64,000 bases of DNA from Daucus carota subsp. sativus. Taxonomy: Eukaryota > Streptophyta > Magnoliopsida > Apiales > Apiaceae. The position numbers and the translations under genes are program-made. Numbering within the stretch: the stretch's first letter is position 1; each line of letters begins with the position of its first letter. The stretch is taken from positions 24,478,558 through 24,542,557 of the forward strand of contig NC_030388.2 of assembly GCF_001625215.2 (NCBI RefSeq), given 5' to 3'. Shown here piece after piece: positions 23,623 to 58,073 of this stretch. The notes below the pieces were generated by a model. The model saw nothing but the letters and a program-made list of their open reading frames with translations, had not been told where the DNA came from and made no database searches.

Positions 23623-26600
23623 TTTATGCTAAATTAAGCATATGTTGAACACTTCACCATGAGGGTTTAACATTAGCAAAATTACATTGTTCCTCGTATT
23701 GCTACATATGACAGTATGAGACCATACTCTCCATACTACTATAGTTTGGTTTATTGACTAGGGAAAATTGGAATGTTTTATAAGCTGATATACTGAAAAA
23801 AATTGTGATGGGTGTGTATTGTTAATTTATTAGTTTGTATGAAGGTAGATTGTGTCGGCAGTGCTATCTCGAGATATCTAGCAATCCATGCCGGAAAAAA
23901 ATTAGTGCCCTATATTGATATCGTAAAAAGGTAATAAATGACATATCGATAATATTTATTCATTGGATCAGCCAAATAAGAAAGATATTTAACAACAAAT
24001 TATTTAATCAAAACATTTAACAACATGTTTGATGCTATTTTGAAGTAAAAATTAAAATCTGTGCCCCTAAGAAATTTTGTGCTTATATATTTTATTAAAT
24101 TTTTATTTACTCCTTTATATATATGTAAAAGAAATATGCCTTTAAAAGTTTAATTTTTAGGTACTCCCATTCGTTAGCATAAGCGGATTGGTCTCAGGCC
24201 AATGTGTCGGCGCTGTTGATGACACACATGTATCTGCTCACATAAGAATACCTAATAAACATGCTCTCGTGGTCATAGAGATACCCGAAAATTAATGTGC
24301 TGACTGACTGCATTTTTGATTCAAAATTCACATATACTTCGAGTGATCGGGGAAGGAACTGCATCAGATTCAAGAATAATTAAAATGCACTTATTAGAGA
24401 AGTTAAATTAGTAAAAAATAATTGACAGTGGGATAGACCCTAGCTTCCTAAAAATCTCTCTAACTCTTTTCATTTCTAGCTGTCGCCGGAGCTTCCATCA
24501 ATCTTCATGAAAAGTCCCAATCAATTAATTTCTTTTGATTTGTTGTTCTTCTTTCATTAAAACTCCTCACCAGATCTATTCTTAGATGTTAGATCTATTA
24601 GTTTTTCAAGATTTTGATTCGGTGATAAATCAATTGGGATGCATAAATGATAAGTTAGGCGACTGTAATTCAGTTTTAGCCATATCTGGAGTTCACATCG
24701 ATCGGTAAGATAAGGAACGTGTGAATTGACCCCACGATAATGGTATGCGTTCAAAATATTTTGTCATAGTACTTTTGAATTTGTCTGTCATATATGTCCT
24801 TTGAACAGATTTATATTTCGTAATTGAATTTTGTGATTCGTTTATAGCTAGATATATAAGGTTTTATACTACAAATTGTGTTATAGCGTTTTTGTATATT
24901 CAGTTTTTTATTGTGTTCCTTTCGAGGGAGAGTCATAGTTGATGGCTTTTTGATCGTATATTGTGATTTTATTTTGTCGTTAATTATCATTTGATGACTT
25001 TGTTTCGATGCTTGACATAAGCCTTTGTTCTTGATTATTTCTTCCCTCTTTTTTCTCTCTCTCTCTCTCTCTCTTTATTTCTTTCATTCGTTATTTTTTC
25101 TCTCCCTCTTTCTTTTCTTCCTTCCCGCAGATCTTGTGTCCTTCATCCGGGTTTTCTTTACGGTCATTAAAATTTTATTGACTAAATTTTGTGGGGCCAT
25201 CTTTGCATGATTGTGGTTAGTCGGTAGATTTCTTTAAATGAAAGTTCTCCTTTTCTTCTTAGTTCTGTGGTTTTGCTTCTTTTTTTTCGAGTGTTTTTTT
25301 TAGACATCAATTTTTTTTATCTGAATTTTTGTGTGACATTTCAGCAATGCCCTCTGGTTAGATGAAAGATTTTCATGTATGAAAGAAGCTCTTTCGATCC
25401 TCTCGGTATTGTATTTTGGTACAATTCACTAACGTGAAAGTCTTATGACAAAAAAGAAAAGTTAAATTAGTTATCCCTGCCGGTAATTATTGAACAAATA
25501 ATCAACCATTCTTTTTTCAATTCTTGTATTCAATATATTATACTGTATTTAATGTAGTCCTATATCTTATTTATGGGTAAATATTGTTTAGTTGATGCGG
25601 GTCTCCTCATAGAAGTGGACTAGTCCCACTTTTAGTGTTCATTACCATCTAAAAGAGTACACAAATCGTGGACCTGTAAATTGTAAAGAGGTATTTAATT
25701 ATCGCCATGCATCATTGAGGAATGCTATTGGAAGGGCAATTTTTTTCCTATTATTAGAAGTATAATTAAGCCATTCTATTCGTGTCAAGCACATTCAGAC
25801 ATATTTATCACTTGTTATATATTGCAGAACTTCTTTGTACAATTTCTTACGAGAAAAAGATCATGATATGACACATGAAGAAGAAGTGATACAAGAGTTG
25901 GAAAAAGAAACTCTCGAAGTAGTGTTTTATGCACTAAGAAACAAGTTTGAAGGTTGGGGCCATTGCAGGTAAAATCGAAATACAATAGCGAATACTATGT
26001 GGAGCGAATACTTATTGCACAAGGATAATGATGTTAAAATGTTAGATTAGTTAATAGTTGTGGCGAACTCATTCGTAGTTAGATTGTTTTTAACTATACT
26101 TTGAGTGAGTTGTTTTGTTATTATTTTTGATTTAATTTAATCAGTGAATGTACTTTAATATTTTTACTTTATATATGTATTGCAACTGATTTTTGTATTA
26201 AAATTTTGTTCTCTTTACTTTGTATATGTAGTTCATAACATTTTGATATAATTCATTTTCAGTTTGATTTTAATATTTCCCAACCTGATATAAAATCAAG
26301 GAAAAATCATTAAGATGGTGATAAACAATCTAGATTCAGCTAGACAGCTACTTATTAGATTGGAGATAATTTTATCAGCTGAAAATATCTAACAATGGCC
26401 CTGTTTGGGACGGAGGGAGTATCTAGATTTTCTTGAAATTTAGAAACTAAGTTATATGTGGCAACTGATGAAGAAATATGGGAACTATTAATAGTTGGGT
26501 TTAATAGTTGGGGGTCTAATTAAGATGTTTACTTAACTGATGACATGACCTAATTAAAAGTATTAACTTTATTATACTTCTGCATTATATTATAGGCAAA

Positions 26601-30712: not shown

Positions 30713-33700
30713 ATGGTAAGGATGGAAGTCAATGTTAAGAATGTCCAAACAGAAGAATTCGGTGCCTTACCTTGTCTAGCTCGGGCTGTTCGGATTTTGT
30801 TGGTAGATCATGACATAACCTCACACATTTCCCTTACATCTATGTTTGTGCAACAAAATTATAAAGGTAATTATTTATTTTTTATACATTTCAGAACATG
30901 TTTTTCTCAATACTTCTCCTTTCGAATACATTTAAGATTTTGATTTTCTAAATTTTGTAAGTTTATGGATTCTTTCTTGTTTGGTGCTTTGCTCAGTGTG
31001 TACTACTTGAAATCTCAATATTTATCAGGGTGACTCATGTTAATGACTATGATTTATTTTCGAGATGCCTTATTCCTGAAAAGAAATCTATAGATACATG
31101 CTTTTTTGCCAATATATTTCTATCTTTGTAAATAACGAATATGAACCATTTTCAAATATTTAATTTTAAATCTTATATCATATCTCTTATTTAATCAACT
31201 AATGAACTTTTCAAATACTATGTGTGCAAGACTTTTGTGATTAATCTCTTACAATATTATTCGATGACATGTTTCTTGATCTGGTTGGTTTCAGTGACCA
31301 CTGTTGAATCCGCAACTCAGGCACTGTCATTCCTTGAAGAGAAGGAGGAGAATTATGATATGGTAATTGCTGAAATTCCCATGCCAGAAATGAGCATCTC
31401 TGAGTTTGCAGAGAAAATTCATGGTCACAGTAGTAAAATTCCAATAATATGTAAGCCAGATTATATTTGATCTCCTTTTTATTTACATCATATGTAGTCA
31501 AAATTGATCAGCTTGTATGTATGCAGTGATTGCTAAAGATTTACCAAGAGAGTTAATGTTGGAGGCTTTTGACAATGGGGTGTGCTATGTCCTCCCAAAG
31601 CCACCTAGTCAAAGTGACATTGCAGGATTGTGGCAGCATGTCCGTCGAGTGACAGGAGAAATGCCTGCTTCGATAGACTTCTCTAACTTTCGATTAGAGG
31701 ATTGGGACAATCCTACCAGTGATAGTGGTAGGGGTGGTTCTGCAAGAAATCAAGAAGAGATGAACTTAAAGATGAAAGGGGTCGTTACTGAAGAAGGCCA
31801 TGCAAAAAGGAAACAGATCCATATTGCAGGCACTTCTGGTTCTTCAACTGACTTTGAGGTGGAGGATGGTCACTACTCTAAGAAGACAAACATCTCTTAT
31901 TATTTGCATTTTCATGAGAAGTTTTTGAATGCAATAAGCACTCTCGGTGAACATGGTAATTAGCACTAATGTTGCTATAAATTATTTTATGATATATATG
32001 TATGCTGTTGTGTAATGGTAATAATGTGAACTTGTCTTTCTTTTGGAGCAGATGCTCAGCCAGAGAATATCTTAGCATTGATGAATGAGCCTGGCTTGAC
32101 ATATGACCAGGTTGCTAGTTATTTGCAGGTATATATTTATCTCAAACTAACTGATCAGTTCTGAAAAATATATGATATATATATTAAAACAATCTGCACC
32201 ATATTATTCACTATGTACATATAACTGACTCTCATTCCAAATATAGCATTGATATCATTTATGTTACTCCGATTATTCTGTTTAGGGAGTCGTATCCGTA
32301 TCCAACACTTGAACATGCAAACATGATATTATGTGCGGGATTCTTTGATTGAAATGTGGACACTCTGACAACCTAAAAGACTACATTTTAAGTTAAATTT
32401 ACAATGTAAACGGGAAAAAGCAAAAAAAATATAACGAAACATATAAAAAAAGAAGACCCTTAATTTAAAAAATATCTAATAACTTGATAGAGTTACCTTT
32501 TGTTAAAATATCTACTTACATGTTTATTATTTTATGTCCCCGCATCCGTATCCCAAAAATAGAATACTGTCCCCGTTTCCCCAATTCGAAGTTTTCAAGT
32601 TCGACACTTCGTATCCGAGTTAGACTAACCTAGGTTATCCTTATTCTAATGTTGCTTAAACATTGATGTGTATCTAGTTTAGGTACCAGTTTCAGCTTAT
32701 ATATCTTGTAATTAAGGTGGACCATTGAAGTGCCTTCTCAGTATCACTTACCCTTTAAGTGTTCTTAAGTGTACCAGTGGAGTTTGTTCTGATCATCACT
32801 TACCTTCTTAGCTGCTTAATATTAATGTTGGTACAGAGCAGGTACACATATCTTATAGTCCTTTGTTACCAGGATGACAAGTTCATAACAGGAAGATTAC
32901 TAAATCCTGTCCATATATGATTTCTTAATAGTTGTACAAGTACCATAATTTACAAATTGTTAAGCTTTTGCATGTAATCCTTATTGTAGTTAACTAATAT
33001 TGATTACATTTGTTACTATTTTCAGTACAACTTAATTACATCATCTAGTTTACTAGAAAGTTTCCTTCTTCACTGCAGACATATGAAGAACAGAAGAGAC
33101 TCTTGTCGAACGTGATGAAAACTGCTAGTCCAGTTATGCCAGCACCGGTAACCAATTCCAACCAAGGAAATGCCTTCAACTACCCGGGCAACCAATATGG
33201 TGTCCCAGTACCATACGCTGGAATGCAACAACCACAAGGTGCAAGTGGTTATTTTAGCAATAGATGGGAGGCTCAAGAACGAGGAGGTTCAAGCCTTCAT
33301 TACCCTGGCAACAATACTGCGAACGCAGTTATCAACCCATATGTCGTCCAAGTACCACAGGGTAATGGTGGAATTCAAGAACCACAAGGTGCAAGTGGTT
33401 ACTTGAGCAATAGCGGGGTGCCTCTAAATCAAGAACAAGGAGGTTCAAGCCTCGGTTACCCTCGCTACAATAGTGGTGGTTCAAGTATTGGTTACGTGAA
33501 CAATGGTTGGCAGGTTCCCAACCAAGGACCAGCAGGTTCCAGTATGCACTTGAGGAATCGTTGGGAGGCCATGAATCAAGAGCCAACAGGTGTATCTGGA
33601 ACTGCACCATATAGCTTTGGAAATGCACCAGCAGCTGCAAGCACACACTTGAGCAATAATTTCGAGGCTTCGAATCAAGGACCAGCTGGTGCATCTGGAA

Positions 33701-33864
33701 CTGCACTATATGGTTCTGGAAATGCTGGCAATACGGGTGCCATGAACAACAAAAATCACGGAGAAGGCACTAGTGGTTCCGGTCAGCTGTTTGATGGACT
33801 ACCTAGCGATGAAGAAATTAGCCGAATCTTGCAGGACTTTGAAGACTCTGGAGGTGACTTGTAG
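30713..33864 (+). CDS. Type-B response-regulator-like protein with degenerate receiver
   Basis: Five exons in phase: 30713-30866, 31295-31450, 31527-31955, 32052-32128, 33079-33864; 533 aa. The first ATG is at 30713. Receiver, residues ~26-140: VRILLVDHD keeps the acidic pair, the Lys of VLPKPP (about residue 128) is kept, but the phospho-acceptor Asp is Glu (MVIAEIPMPEM, about residue 78). Residues ~222-280 resemble the GARP/B-motif (FHEKFLNAISTLG, ENILALMNEPGLTYDQVASYLQ) but lack the usual RVVWS start. Residues ~290-520 are Gly/Asn/Gln-rich degenerate repeats (QEPQGASGYLSN, NQGPAGSSMHLRNRWEA). The end is acidic (SDEEISRILQDFEDSGG). The family mediates cytokinin-responsive transcription through phosphorelay; with Glu in place of Asp this one may be phosphorylation-independent or non-functional (inference). 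Two broken relatives lie downstream. Confidence 0.85.
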
Positions 33865-37191: not shown

Positions 37192-38030
37192 TTTTTATTG
37201 TAAATTAACACACTGTATACTTTTTGTTTCAATTTATGCGCAATTGCAGTAGATAATGAAGAAAATGCTCCAATAAGATCACTATCTTATGGTTTGCGAA
37301 AGCAATTATCAACCCATATGGTGTCCCAGTACCATACGGTAATGCTCGAATGCAACAACCACAAGGTGAAAGTGGTTATTTTAGCAATAGATGGGAGGCT
37401 CAAGAACGAGGAGGTTCAAGCCTTCATTACCCTGGCAACAATACTGCGAAAGCAGTTATCAACCCATATGTTGTCCAAGTACCACAGGGTAATGGTGGAA
37501 TTCAACAACCACAAGGTGCAAGTGCTTACTTGAGCAATAGCTGGGTGCCACTGAATCAAGAACAAGGAGGTTCAGGCCTCGGTTACCCTCGCTACAATAG
37601 TATTGGTTACCTGAACAATGGTTGGCAGGTTCCCAACCAAGGACCAGCAGGTTCCAGTATGCACTTGAGGAATCGTTGGGAGGCCATGAATCAAGAGCCA
37701 ACAGGTGTCTTTGGAACTGCACCATATGGCTTTGAAAATGCTGGCCATATGGGTGGCATGAACAATCGATTGCACGTTCCAACCCAAGGACCAGCAGCTG
37801 CAAGCACGCACTTGAGTAATAACTTTGAGGCTTCGAATCAAGGAACATCAGGTGAATTTGGAACTGCACTATATGGTTCTGGAAATGCTGGCAATACGGG
37901 TAACATGAACACTAGAAATTACGGAGAAGGCACTAGTGGTTCCAGTCAACAGTTTGATGGAATACCCAGCGATGATGAAATTAGCCGAATCTTGCAGGAC
38001 TTTGAAGACTCTGGAGGTGACTTGTAGGAT

Positions 38031-52485: not shown

Positions 52486-53875
52486 CGGTCCAGTTTAATT
52501 TAGAATTTTCTATTTTCTATTTTTTTGAGTTTTTGATCCGGATCAAATAAATCAAATTATACTTGTTATTTATTTTGTATTATGTGTGTACTATATTTTT
52601 ATTATATATATATTAAGTTATGCACTAGCAGCTTCTCTATGATTCCCGATAGTTCCAAAGCCGCTTCTTTATAATTCTAGATAGTTCCAAAATCTTTATA
52701 AATAGAGACCCCAGATTTCCTAACATTGTCGTTCCATACCATCCTATCTCTCGCCTCTCTTTTATCCCCTAAAACCTCTTTTCCCTTTCTGAAGATCTTT
52801 GCCTAATTCACTCTTTTTTATATTTTAATTTTGCACAATCGTTGCTTGATTTACCTGATCTTTGGCTAATTCGCCTAATTTCTTTTATAATGACGAGCGT
52901 CTCGACTTTGCTTGATTTGAACTGGTAAGAAATTGTCCAAAATTAACTTTTAAACACCAGTACACACATACATACACCGTGAATACATGACTTGTGATGA
53001 TTTGATTGGATGTAAATGTGAATGTTTTATTGTAAATTAACATACTGTATACTCTTTTTTTTTTCAATTTATGGCAATTGCAGTGAATAATGAAGAAAAT
53101 GCTCCAAGATGGATTAAGATCACTATCTTATAGTTTGCAGGTTAGATTTCATTCAATCTGTTTAGTACATGCAAGTGAATGTTTTTTGTTCGTAAATGAT
53201 ATGTTGTTATACTAGTTGTTTTTAGTTAATTATTAGTTTCGACTATATTATAATTCATTGTTTCCTTTTTGATGTCATTGGCTAATGGGTCAGGGTCATC
53301 ATAAGTGGACTGCAAGAGGAAATCGCCATGAGAGATGGTGTAACCAAACACGGTGTTGGAAAATGGCGCATAATTCTCAGTGATCCTGAGTTTAGCATTT
53401 GGCGCACAATTCTCAGTGATCCTGAGTTCAGCACTGTGTTGGTTCAAGCCTCGGTTACCATGGCAACAATAGTGCGAAAGCAATTATCAACCAATATAGT
53501 GTCCAAGTACCGGACTGTAGTGGTGGAATTCAAGTACCACAAGGTGCAAGTGGTTACTTTAGCAATAGCCGGGAGCCTTTCAATCAAGAACGAGGAGGTT
53601 CAAGTCTCGGTTACTCTAGCTACAATAGTACGAAAACAATTATAAATCAATATGGTGTCCAAGTACTAGATGGTAATGGTGGAATTCAAGGACCAGGTTC
53701 AAGTATTGGTTACCTGAACAATGGTTGGCAGGTTCCAAACCAAGGACTCGCAGGTTCAAGTAAGCACTTGAGGAATAGTTGGAAGGCCCTGAATCAAGAA
53801 CCAACAGGTGTATTTGGAACTGCACTATATGGCTTTGGAAATGCTGGCAATATGGGTGACAGGCACCAACTGTAT
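52486..53875 (+). pseudogene. Mosaic copy B: promoter + TRB-type Myb fragment + response-regulator tail
   Basis: 52486-52925 matches the promoter/leader of copy A with TATA CTTTATAAATAGAG and start ATGACGAGCGTCTCGACTTT. 53092-53140 is a small exon-like piece, then GT. 53294-53435 encodes KWT...RDGVTKHGVGKWRIILSDPEFS, the end of the single-Myb domain of TRB (telomere-repeat-binding/SMH) proteins; WRxILSDPEFS is tandemly repeated by a 27-bp duplication. From about 53435 to 53862 the sequence is the repeat-rich tail seen at 33.3 and 37.4 kb, in a broken frame. Homology stops at about 53862, so the acidic end is missing. No continuous frame joins these parts. Confidence 0.75.
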
Positions 53876-55006
53876 TAGAGTTTATCGTCAGAGAATGTTT
53901 CTCGGAGTTTGTCAAATCTGGTTCTCAAGAGCTGATTGATTATAATCAAAGAGATATATTTTATAGAGATTTGTAGGTTACATGACTTTAGTAATCAGTA
54001 GCTATCAGTTATTGGATATTTAATCTAATGCTTAAATCATGTTTATCATATTTGTAATTGATAGGGTAGTTGTGCAGTATATAAGCACAGATTAGGTTTA
54101 CATTACAGAATCATGTTTAAGAGAGTTTCCTTAGAGAGAGAACCCACAGAATCCTTACCTTATTTGTAGTATTAGGTAGGGTTCCGCATCAGAACTTAAG
54201 TATTAGTTAGGGTTCCATATTTACCTTGAATATTGACTCCGATTTGCAATTTTTAAAGTCTATAACTTCTTCTTTTTATTGGAAGTCCACAATTTCTTTG
54301 AAGTAAATAAATTATTAGTTATTACATAAATACAAGAATGCATATACCAAAAAATTATTAACTATTACAAAAATACAAAAATGCATATACGAAAAATGAA
54401 AAAAAAGAGCCGATTGTAATTTGATGGCTATAATTTTTACCGATTTTTAAATTAGTGATTATAATTTCAAATTTAAAGATCGGCGTCTAAAATTTTTGGT
54501 GAGATTCAAAATGATGGCAATACTTCAAAATTTACAAACCGATGACTTTAGTTTATACCGAATTTCGAAAAGATAACCGTGTCTTAATAATTTAACAAAT
54601 ATATAAGGTAAATGAAATGATAATATCGTAAACTTATAGAGAAAGTTATTAAGTTAAAAAATAATATTGATGTCATGTACACACATAAATAGCTATTTAT
54701 ACGCCAAAATATTATTCAATTTAAACGATTTTTCTTCAAAATGTAAAATTTAAACTATCTTATTAAATCGATTTTGGAATATTAAATTTAAATAATATTA
54801 TAATCGTTATCAAATCAAAGTTGATGTGAATACGAACTTGATAACCTTTTAATCTTAATATAAATTTACGTGTCACCAAAATATTTTTAAAATTGGTAAA
54901 TTACTTTTTCATATGATATTACTAAAGTTTTATATGTTGAGCTGAAAAAATAGTGCCACTCTTTTTTAATTTGACTTAAATCATTGTCACTAATTTATAA
55001 ATTTTA
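53863..55006. other. Intergenic; possible transposon end
   Basis: The response-regulator homology ends abruptly at TGGGTGACAGGCACC (about 53862). The next ~330 bp (TATA-like AGTATATAAGCACAG near 54077) has the look of an LTR, but no partner is seen. 54250-55006 is AT-rich with no coding signs. Confidence 0.4.

Positions 55007-55073: not shown

Positions 55074-55155
<82 letters not shown>
55074..55155. repeat. (TA)n microsatellite, left border
   Basis: Pure TA run of about 82 bp bordering the palindrome-bearing element. The opposite run is at 57308-57359. Confidence 0.98.
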
Positions 55156-55157
<2 letters not shown>

Positions 55158-57305
55158 GAAACCGGTCCACAGCCACCGGTGGATAAAGACCGGTTTCCAG
55201 CCACCAAATCATAACCACTCGTTGCTGTGATCCTACGGTTGAAAAAGAGACTCCTCGCAATGAAACATTGCAACCCCGCAATGAATCATTGCGGGTATAC
55301 ATGTCCCCGCAATGAAACAATGCAACTCCGCAATGAATCATTGCGGGTATACAAGTCCCCGCAATGTTTCATTGCAGGGAGTCTCTTTTTATTCCCTGGA
55401 CCCTTTTACCCCTCCCTTCACATATTATATGCCTTGTAGAGTTTATTAAATTAAATTGTTATCATTTAACATTTTAAATTATATTAAAAATATTGTTAAG
55501 ATTAGAAGTGGTGAGAAAATTTTAATTTTTCTTAGTACAATATATGAATAATTTTCTATCTAATTTCTATATATTTTTATCTTATTAACTATTTTATGTC
55601 TTTTTGCTATACGAATAATTTTACTTATTTTAATACTACTGCTTGTTTCTTAAATATATCGAACATATGTTTGAACTACATAGTTCACATGCTCTTTTAT
55701 GGTTGATTAACTTTTTGCAGTTAAAGTTGAATTATTTTATTACAAATTATTCACTTTTTTCAATTCTATTTTGTACTGGTAGTGTTTTCAGATATACTCG
55801 AAAATATTCAAATCAAAGATAAATATCAAAATTATGAATAAACATCACTTAAATTGGTTGAATATTCGTAAGAACACATATAATTAGTATTTTTGCTAGA
55901 ATTTAATATTTTTTGATAAATTATTAACTTTTTCCAATTCTCGTTTGTACAAGTAGTGTTTTGAAATATATTCGAACAAATGCAAATCATTGATACTCAA
56001 ACAAATACAAATCAAAGAAAAATATCTAAATTATTAATAAATGTTATTTAAATTAGTGAAATATTAGTAAGAACACATATATTAATATTTTCTAGCTAAA
56101 GGAGAATACATTCTTACAATTTATTGAACTTTTTAAAATATTTTGAATAAAACAAGTAATATTATTATCCCCGCAATGTTTCATTGCGGGGATAGTTTAC
56201 ATAATTTTCATCCCCGCAATGAATCATTGCGGGGTGTTAAATTTGATTGAAAAGGTGGTTGGATGAGGTGGATAGTTTTTATTGCAAAAAGACACCCGCC
56301 ATGTTTCATTGCGGGGCGTATTTTATTTTAAAAGATACCCGCAATGAATCATTGCGGGGGGTATTTTTTTACTTCATTTACACCAGTTTGATACCCACAA
56401 TGAATCATTGCGGGGGATATTTTTTTACTCCAAAACAACCAAACAAGGATTCGAACATTGTACCTTGCAGTTTCAGGACAAGTAATGACACCAGTTTGAC
56501 AATAGATGTTTTTCATTGGTAGTCGTCCATTAGGAAGGAGATATATAACCTTTGAAATAAAATTCAATAATAAATAAATTTTACTATATATTGAAATTGA
56601 TAATGTAACTTAATTTTATTTCTTATTTAATTAATAATATAAATAATTTAATTTAATTAATAATTAAATTAAATTAATTTTATATTCAGGTATTTTAATT
56701 AATATTATACTTTATAAAATTCAATTTTTATATTAAAATAATTTAATTTAATCAATAATATAAATAATATAATAAATAAATAGTTTAATTATTTAAAATT
56801 TAAACAAAAATATTTTTAATACAAATATTATAAAAAATAAATTCACTTCAGTTACAAAGTATTGCGAGATGTTAAAAATATATATTTTATATAAATAGTT
56901 TATAATATTAAAAGTTTAAATGAAACTATTTATTTTAATATAAATAATATAATAAATAAGTAATTTATATTATTTAATATTTAAAAGAAAATATACATAT
57001 TAATATAAACAATATAATAAATAAATAAGTAGTTAATATTATTTAAATAAAATATAGATGCATGTGGCAGAAGGGTACTGAGGGTATGAATTTTTCACCA
57101 GGCTTCCCGCAATGTATCATTGCGGGTAACTAACACCCAGCAATGAAACATTGCGGGTCAATACCCCGCAATGTGTCATTGCGGGAGTTAATTACCCCGC
57201 AATGTTTCATTGCGGGGTTGCAATGTTTCATTGAGGGGATTCCTTCTCATCCAACGGCTCAGATCTGGTGGTTCACTATCCAACGGTGGCTGTATAACAG
57301 CCCCC

Positions 57306-57307
<2 letters not shown>
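55156..57307. mobile_element. Unrecognised element with palindromic repeat arrays, bounded by (TA)n
   Basis: Left 230 bp and right 240 bp are imperfect inverted copies: ACAGCCACCGGTGGATA on the left, TATCCAACGGTGGCTGT on the right; then AATGAAACATTGCAACCCCG against CGGGGTTGCAATGTTTCATT. Both sides carry clusters of a palindrome CCCGCAATG-NNN-CATTGCGGG: five at 55255-55380, five at 56169-56415, five at 57104-57240. The left end also has a hairpin (GGAAACCGGTC...GACCGGTTTCC, 55157-55193), the right end GGCTGTATAACAGCC. The core is AT-rich and non-coding. Insertion in (TA)n recalls the rice Micron MITEs, but the palindrome arrays are not something I know from them. Short frames across the arrays are by-products of the repeats. 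Confidence 0.75.

Positions 57308-57359
<52 letters not shown>
57308..57359. repeat. (TA)n microsatellite, right border
   Basis: TA run of about 50 bp that starts directly after CCCCCAG, the right end of the palindrome-bearing element. Confidence 0.97.
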
Positions 57360-57364
<5 letters not shown>

Positions 57365-57606
57365 TATAATTGAAAAGATGTAAAAAAAATATCATTGAAA
57401 AGTAAATCCAACTTATTTTAGTATGTAACTTTCTATTTTCTAAAATAATGCATAAATATTTTAAATAATTTGATCAAAAATTAGTAAATTTGTAAAATAA
57501 AATTGAGGAGGAGGGAGTAAATTGTAGGTTTGGATCTGAGTAAAAACCTCTACCTTGATTACCGATTTACAAATTTAAAACAATAGCCATTACTTTGAAA
57601 TTGAGA

Positions 57607-58073
57607 AGGGTGTATTGGATTGAGATTTTAAAGCATTTTTTTGCATTCATGAAATCCGAGAGTATTTGATTGAGATTGTTTGAAATCCATTAAAATCTTG
57701 AGTTATTCAATTGGGATTTCAAATTATGCTACAAAATCTGGTGGTATTCAATTGGAATTTTAAATTATGCTTTAAAATCCGATGGTATTCAATTGGGATT
57801 GTTTAAAATCCATTAAAATTTGATGATATTAAAATGCTGATGGATTTTTTTTTCATTTCATAAAATGATGGATTTTGTGGCATTTTTCACTGTATTTTAA
57901 GTTTTTTTGAAATCCCACCAAAATCAATGGGATTTTGAAACATTGTACCTAAATCCTATCAATTTTGCGACATTTTATCAGGTATCCGCAAAAAATCAAA
58001 ATCACATACAATCTATTAAAATCCATAGACTAAAAACAATCTCTTAAAATCCCAATCGAATACAGCCAGTGAA
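57607..58073. mobile_element. MITE with GGGTGTATT-type ends
   Basis: Left GGGTGTATTGGATTGAGATT and right AATCCCAATCGAATACAGCC are inverted. The interior repeats GGTATTCAATTGGGATT several times. No clear target duplication. It ends about 130 bp before the likely first exon of the RPN6 gene. Confidence 0.65.

Follow-up and report, generated by a model that had tools for sequence, protein, structure and literature searches.

A 2.15-kb element with three ordered palindrome groups in a TA microsatellite of Daucus carota, very likely a non-autonomous Mutator-like transposon

Short palindromes with nearly constant arms recur in three groups at one locus of the carrot genome and raise two questions: what kind of element carries them, and what do the palindromes do? 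The locus lies in a 64-kb window, the whole stretch of DNA that was analyzed (C8:24478558-24542557). The window is plant nuclear DNA, with a PPR gene, a TRAF-type zinc-finger gene, and an RPN6 proteasome gene present. The element proper spans ~55157-57305 (2.15 kb) and has GGAAACC at its left terminus and CCCCC at its right terminus. In the window copy, one extra G and one extra AG lie between the termini and the TA tracts. The features of the locus are as follows.

55074..55155, no strand: (AT)41 microsatellite in the left flank, the insertion target, probably expanded (repeat scan; TA tracts in family copies)
55157..55241, plus strand: terminal region "end B", GGAAACCGGTCC-ACAGCCACCGGTGGATA, core at 55169-55185 (same terminus in other copies)
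55242..55254, plus strand: AAAAAGAGACTCC, left arm of an inverted repeat around the left palindrome block
55254..55378, no strand: left palindrome group, five units; 21-mers start at 55254, 55275, 55306, 55327, and 55358 (spacing 21, 31, 21, 31)
55378..55390, minus strand: GGAGTCTCTTTTT, right arm of the inverted repeat around the left palindrome block
56170..56414, no strand: middle palindrome group, five units (spacing 43, 82, 43, 56)
56756..56776, no strand: AT-rich junction where ~4 kb is absent relative to the longer copy L021
57106..57237, no strand: right palindrome group, five units (spacing 31, 28, 31, 21)
57238..57305, minus strand: terminal region "end A", read on the minus strand as GGGGGCTGTTAT-ACAGCCACCGTTGGATA, core at 57277-57293
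57308..57368, no strand: (AT)n microsatellite in the right flank (repeat scan)

The end regions had been described from the sequence as inverted copies of each other, and the 17-mers ACAGCCACCG(G/T)TGGATA, oppositely oriented near both borders with one difference, bear this out. The terminal inverted repeats (TIRs) are composed of this 17-bp inverted core, with 1 mismatch, and of the palindrome-bearing subterminal regions. The outermost 12-13 bp are not alike between end A and end B. The end-to-end TIR score in the window is 34, and none of 2000 letter shuffles exceeds 31. Of 2000 random pairs taken from the window, however, 27 score 34 or above (with a top score of 144 from repeats), and so the TIR claim rests on the family alignment. 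End B also has an inverted repeat of its own, GGAAACCGGTC/GACCGGTTTCC (55157-55199), around the inverted core; it is absent from end A. As the preliminary description had stated, coding capacity is lacking: the list of open reading frames of at least 110 aa (stop to stop) is empty inside the element.

The surroundings contain other repeats. Related open frames at 33049-33864, 37260-38027, and 53426-53878 have a common low-complexity protein sequence and look as if a single gene had been duplicated in pieces. The latter two carry internal tandem repeats of 147-156 bp, and the frame at 53426-53878 lies 1.3 kb left of the element. On the right, a 41-bp tandem repeat (3.6 copies, 57684-57830) begins 0.4 kb from the element.

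A pattern scan of the 64-kb window identified 15 CGCAATG-NNN-CATTGCG units within 55256-57235, in three groups of five (55256-55376, 56172-56412, and 57108-57235). When up to 3 mismatches are allowed, CGCAATGNNNCATTGCG is found at 16 places in the window. Fifteen of these are at 55256-57235, and the sole match outside the element is at 25703, with 2 mismatches. Dinucleotide shuffles of the window contain a mean of 1.23 and at most 4 matches, and 0 of 100 reach 16, which substantiates the roughly 15 short palindromes in three groups of five reported at the outset. The near-constancy of the arms also stands, as the inner arms are almost without variation across the 15 units. The varying centre stands only in part. 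The centres are AAA (3), TTT (5), AAT (5), TAT (1), and TGT (1); AAA and TTT are the same centre on opposite strands, and the "variable centre" is mostly two types, AAA/TTT and AAT.

The genome of the same species (441,086,747 bp, 11 contigs) was searched for further copies. The exact palindrome 21-mer occurs 262 times, and the pattern written backwards, used as a control, occurs 0 times. Fifty of the 262 places were followed up, all on C1 and all within 10 fetched clusters, and each of these 10 clusters is a copy or fragment of the same element. The right end of the window element has matches at 40 scored places among 128 candidates, the window included, on C1 to C9. The preliminary description had named the lack of any other copy with the same borders as what would tell against its reading; the 262 21-mers, the 40 right ends, and 22 copies with two ends show that such copies are plentiful. 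Six of the copies on C1 share 96.4-98.4% identity across 2.1-2.7 kb, and therefore the family moved recently. In copies that are ~75-85% identical to the window over long blocks, the palindrome groups recur in the same order. With small variations, the termini of copies are "A", GGGGGCTGTTAT-ACAGCCACCG (the right end in the window), and "B", GGAAACCGGTCC-ACAGCCACCG (the left end in the window). A bacterial or phage origin was rejected: the site has 0 hits in the viral contigs scanned, and the prokaryote genomes scanned contain it in 10 stretches, one site each.

Some copies are joined. At L024:4790-4912, tandem A ends have a TA run between them, as if the end had been duplicated via the microsatellite. 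L015:1830-5334 is a composite of two copies, in which a B end is directly joined to the middle palindrome group of another copy.

Target-site duplications of 9 bp are the mark of a Mutator-like element (MULE), a superfamily in which the duplication is 8-11 bp and usually 9 bp. Among 22 two-ended copies, 6 have an exact 9-bp duplication in complex DNA (L020, L055, L056, L057, L058, and L062), directly outside exactly the same termini. As a control, 105,143 random cut pairs were drawn from these six loci, and 7 of them agree over 9 bp. Flanking TA microsatellites, which characterize SaTar, MuTAnT, and Micron elements, are found on both sides of 10 of the 22 copies and on one side of 3 by the script's rule, so that 13 of the copies in this non-random sample have a tract on one or both sides; 3 of the 22 were classed as other. 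L061 has the 9-bp TATATATAT as a duplication and a shorter TA run, L068 has TA runs shorter than the script's rule, and L060, a two-ended copy with a weakly called end, has no duplication that could be seen. The 22 copies are those that were fetched. Excluded from the count are L023, where one end is missing, four loci in which the second end was not found (L018, L019, L064, and L067), and the 3-kb one-end loci; a locus fetched twice is counted once, and the composite L015 is counted as one. In TA-embedded copies, including the window copy, the length of the duplication is unreadable. Dispersed copies, inverted ends, and 9-bp duplications together confirm the transposon-like nature first suggested for the element. 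The family that had been left unnamed is a TA-microsatellite-targeting Mutator-like element of the SaTar/MuTAnT kind.

Related copies encode a transposase of the MULE/FAR1 type. FAR1 DNA-binding domains are found in L021 (E 2.1e-17), a 6-kb copy with palindromes at both ends, and in a copy on C2, L064/L069 (8.7e-15). In the C2 copy, the FAR1 domain is followed by an in-frame stop and then a MULE transposase domain (3.2e-27). Both copies are incomplete: L021 has the N-terminal part only, and the C2 copy has the in-frame stop and no B end that was found. A search of the same genome with the MULE piece yielded relatives of 95-96% identity at C9:23155771, C2:24727499, and C7:24738023, with open frames of 781, 700, and 600 aa, respectively; the C7 match spans residues 1-267 only. 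An A end, at 23.148 Mb on C9, lies ~7.4 kb from the C9 place, and another lies ~1.3 kb from the C7 place, each in a fitting orientation. Remnants of the transposase region (31-32 plus 16-17 residues) are kept in three other copies. At L016:521-1099 (minus strand), a distant FAR1-like match of 28.6% identity lies outside the element.

The window copy aligns to L021 in three blocks, at element bases 2-140 (95.7%), 173-1618 (85.4%), and 1601-2151 (92.4%). Between the last two blocks, ~4 kb of L021, including the coding part, is skipped in the window copy. Window positions 56329-56776 (448 bp) share 95.5% identity with the DNA that precedes the transposase gene in the C2 copy, and the last two units of the middle palindrome group fall inside this shared stretch. 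The right ends of the window and C2 copies match at only 68% over 449 bp. By these comparisons, neither L021 nor the C2 copy is the direct parent of the window copy. In the C2 copy, a palindrome group lies ~119-204 bp upstream of the transposase start, which is presumed, as the start piece and the FAR1 piece are in different frames. Judged from these alignments, the window element is a non-autonomous family member without the coding part. It is best explained as an internally deleted relative of the longer copies, and its movement would depend on a FAR1/MULE-domain transposase supplied in trans from another locus of the genome.

Pieces of a plant mobile domain (PMD, PF10536) lie opposite the transposase strand at L021:3713-4216 and L064:2884-4275 (minus strand). 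Two ~264-bp blocks in this region are 97.7-98.5% identical between L021 and the C2 copy.

The function of the palindromes was approached through 375 units from 25 loci (10 C1 clusters, 14 further loci with L069 added to L064, and the window); the 3-kb right-end loci were left out of this set. The units have 407 one-sided and 14 two-sided deviations. The compensated changes number 13, compared to a shuffled mean of 14.1, and 668 of 1000 shuffles reach 13. A smaller set of 162 units has 169 one-sided and 5 two-sided deviations (4 compensated), against 8.9 two-sided expected. Selection on paired arms, one of the explanations offered for the constant arms, is therefore rejected, since the changes are one-sided and compensation equals the shuffled mean. 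Transitions at the two CpGs make up 171 of the 435 changes, as expected of methylated DNA.

Conservation of the arms was compared across 11 aligned copies. Identity in arm columns is 0.931 (G/C) and 0.965 (A/T), compared to 0.843 and 0.935 elsewhere and 0.825 in the centres, in units that were recognized by their likeness to the consensus. Across the 375 units, the positions that vary least lie in the CAATG and CATTG halves. Much of the arm similarity is recent copying, as among the six near-identical copies, and in the pair of the window and L019 the arms (0.94) are no better kept than the rest (0.96). Gaps are more frequent in arm columns (0.28) than in other columns (0.13) because whole units come and go. 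Unit gain and loss proceeds by 31-bp steps in the aligned copies, and the left block of the window element is partly a 52-bp tandem repeat. In view of these steps and of the tandem left block, the statement that the pattern is "not simple copying" is accurate only in part.

The spacing of the units provides a further clue. Recurrent spacings are 21, 31-33, 42-43, 82, and 84 bp, with a best period near 10.5 bp. Five distinct spacings this near whole turns occur in 0.0008 of random sets, by a test chosen after the spacings were seen. The count-weighted phase peak is broad (0.86 at 10.5 bp and 0.76-0.82 at 11-13 bp), and units within one group are not independent in this family-wide phase test. 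Within the window alone, helical phasing is not significant, as 0.26 of random sets equal it. Conserved arms without compensation and spacings near whole helical turns favor a protein-binding dyad over a hairpin. The pattern favors a dimeric protein that would contact a single side of the double helix, both at the element ends and ahead of the transposase gene.

The best explanation of the locus, and in our judgment a very likely one, is that the window element is a 2.15-kb non-autonomous MULE that targets TA microsatellites and that its palindromes are predicted dyad protein sites. The palindromes would be bound by a dimeric DNA-binding protein, for which the transposase, through its FAR1 domain, is the first candidate. 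This protein would occupy sites in register at the two ends and in the DNA that precedes the transposase gene. In complete relatives, the same sites may serve a double role in end recognition and in control of the transposase promoter. Subterminal transposase-binding sites, as proposed in the preliminary description, remain the best reading, with the FAR1-type transposase of the relatives as the candidate binder. It is also conceivable, at a considerably lower probability, that this is a TA-targeting MULE lineage with an operator-like array of dyads, spaced by whole turns, at the ends and upstream of the transposase gene. An element-encoded reader would then link synapsis of the ends to self-regulation and possibly to escape from host silencing, and the PMD protein would be its partner.

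Several other explanations were weighed against this reading. The palindromes could bind an element-encoded regulatory or anti-silencing factor, such as the opposite-strand PMD protein, instead of the transposase. PF10536 is on the minus strand in both of the two transposase-bearing copies read, and palindromes are found not only at the ends but also ahead of the transposase gene. However, the case is built on those two copies, DNA binding by the PMD protein is putative, and the PMD gene is absent from the window copy. This alternative is rather improbable. DNA or RNA hairpins (cruciforms, small-RNA precursors, or replication hairpins) are a still less probable account. As single-stranded DNA, the three palindrome blocks form far more stable folds than their shuffles (z -11.8, -10.9, and -9.2), but such foldability follows from any perfect palindrome, and compensated changes in the 375 units do not exceed chance. 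Replication hairpins in particular, suggested earlier, find no support in a family that makes 9-bp duplications and has relatives with a gene for a MULE-type transposase. At window positions 57124-57197, both strands match MIR2600 (Rfam RF03843) below threshold (37.0 and 33.6 bits; gathering score 98), and the match is carried mostly by pairing. None of the Rfam matches listed in the searched stretch reaches its gathering score, and a microRNA or other known RNA was rejected. The centres differ as AAA/TTT in 7 of 213 unit pairs. Inversion of the centre as a trace of cruciforms was also rejected: aligned copies display a 31-bp unit shift in one column and a shortened array in the other, so unit gain and loss better explains the apparent flips.

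About as improbable as hairpins is a locally amplified satellite without function. Tandem steps of 31 and 52 bp do occur, six copies are very young, and the arm columns are gappier than others. Against it, the same groups stand in the same order in the copies ~75-85% identical to the window, and the arms are conserved above composition-matched columns, with the reservation that units are recognized by consensus likeness. Finally, arrays of short subterminal motifs resemble those of En/Spm, yet a CACTA element or a Helitron is extremely improbable given the 9-bp duplications and the MULE/FAR1 domains. Read directly, the borders have neither a CACTA terminus nor a Helitron 3' signature. A CACTA element would have CACTA termini and a 3-bp duplication, whereas the termini here are GGGGG and GGAAACC with 9-bp duplications; a Helitron would have no duplication, a TC start, and a CTRR end with a 3' hairpin, and these are not seen at the borders.

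En/Spm (CACTA) elements have many short subterminal TnpA sites at both ends and near the promoter. The model proposed here for the carrot element works with the same layout of many short sites, and the two differ in superfamily, duplication length, and termini. By description, the element belongs alongside the TA-microsatellite-targeting MULEs, namely SaTar, MuTAnT, the pineapple Ac-mMITEs (PMC8449440), the carrot families (PMC8227079), Micron, and TAFT. Micron of rice and TAFT of maize share insertion into TA microsatellites, according to papers that cite them. SaTar elements are found in guayule, rice, sorghum, and citrus and are ~230 to 1900 bp long; the accessible text makes no mention of palindrome arrays, which the window element has (PMC5907723). 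SaTar is marked by clusters in which unrelated elements are linked via microsatellites and never nested. In the present family, two A ends are joined via a TA run at L024, and two copies are joined at L015.

MuTAnT of Medicago truncatula also targets TA repeats, with 9-nt duplications in the minority of copies outside perfect microsatellites (PMC4486113). Its putative autonomous element encodes a Jittery-like transposase, its termini have a GGGG run, and TA repeats are more numerous at occupied than at empty sites (PMC4486113). Unlike the window element, MuTAnT copies are mostly 200-300 bp, and one of 292 bp is a fold-back; AutoMuTAnT has a single ORF in its 4.9 kb, and palindrome groups are not mentioned in the portion of the paper available (PMC4486113). 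The closest result of a literature search for subterminal palindromes or Jittery/FAR1 elements, in the extracts that it returned, was Muta1 of Aedes aegypti. Muta1, an active MULE, shows that terminal repeat arrays are compatible with activity: its 145-bp ends have a terminal motif that is palindromic, along with nine 12-bp subterminal repeats (PMC5225508). It differs in that the repeats are tandem, 3-4 bp apart, and within the ends, and the word "microsatellite" is absent from the text available (PMC5225508). A barley MULE has been described with an ORF in the opposite orientation (PMC9168764).

A text search of the literature, which covers papers and not plant repeat libraries, matched at least one of four unit strings in 16 papers; the 15 that were listed contain neither of the two longer palindrome strings, and their titles bear no relation to the element. 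We did not find a description of this family there; it is a known kind of transposon with an unusual cis-site architecture. How some MULEs come to target TA microsatellites is called unclear in the carrot paper (PMC8227079), and the authors of the guayule paper suggest that an ancillary mechanism or recombination is involved (PMC5907723). Targeting and end recognition are testable with this family: some copies are young and near-identical, the 9-bp duplications can be read, relatives encode the transposase, and an explicit candidate motif is repeated. The element is a real, well-bounded transposon whose cis-site architecture merits the attention of specialists. Its ordered palindrome groups and its size set it apart from the TA-targeting MULEs as these are described in the sources available.
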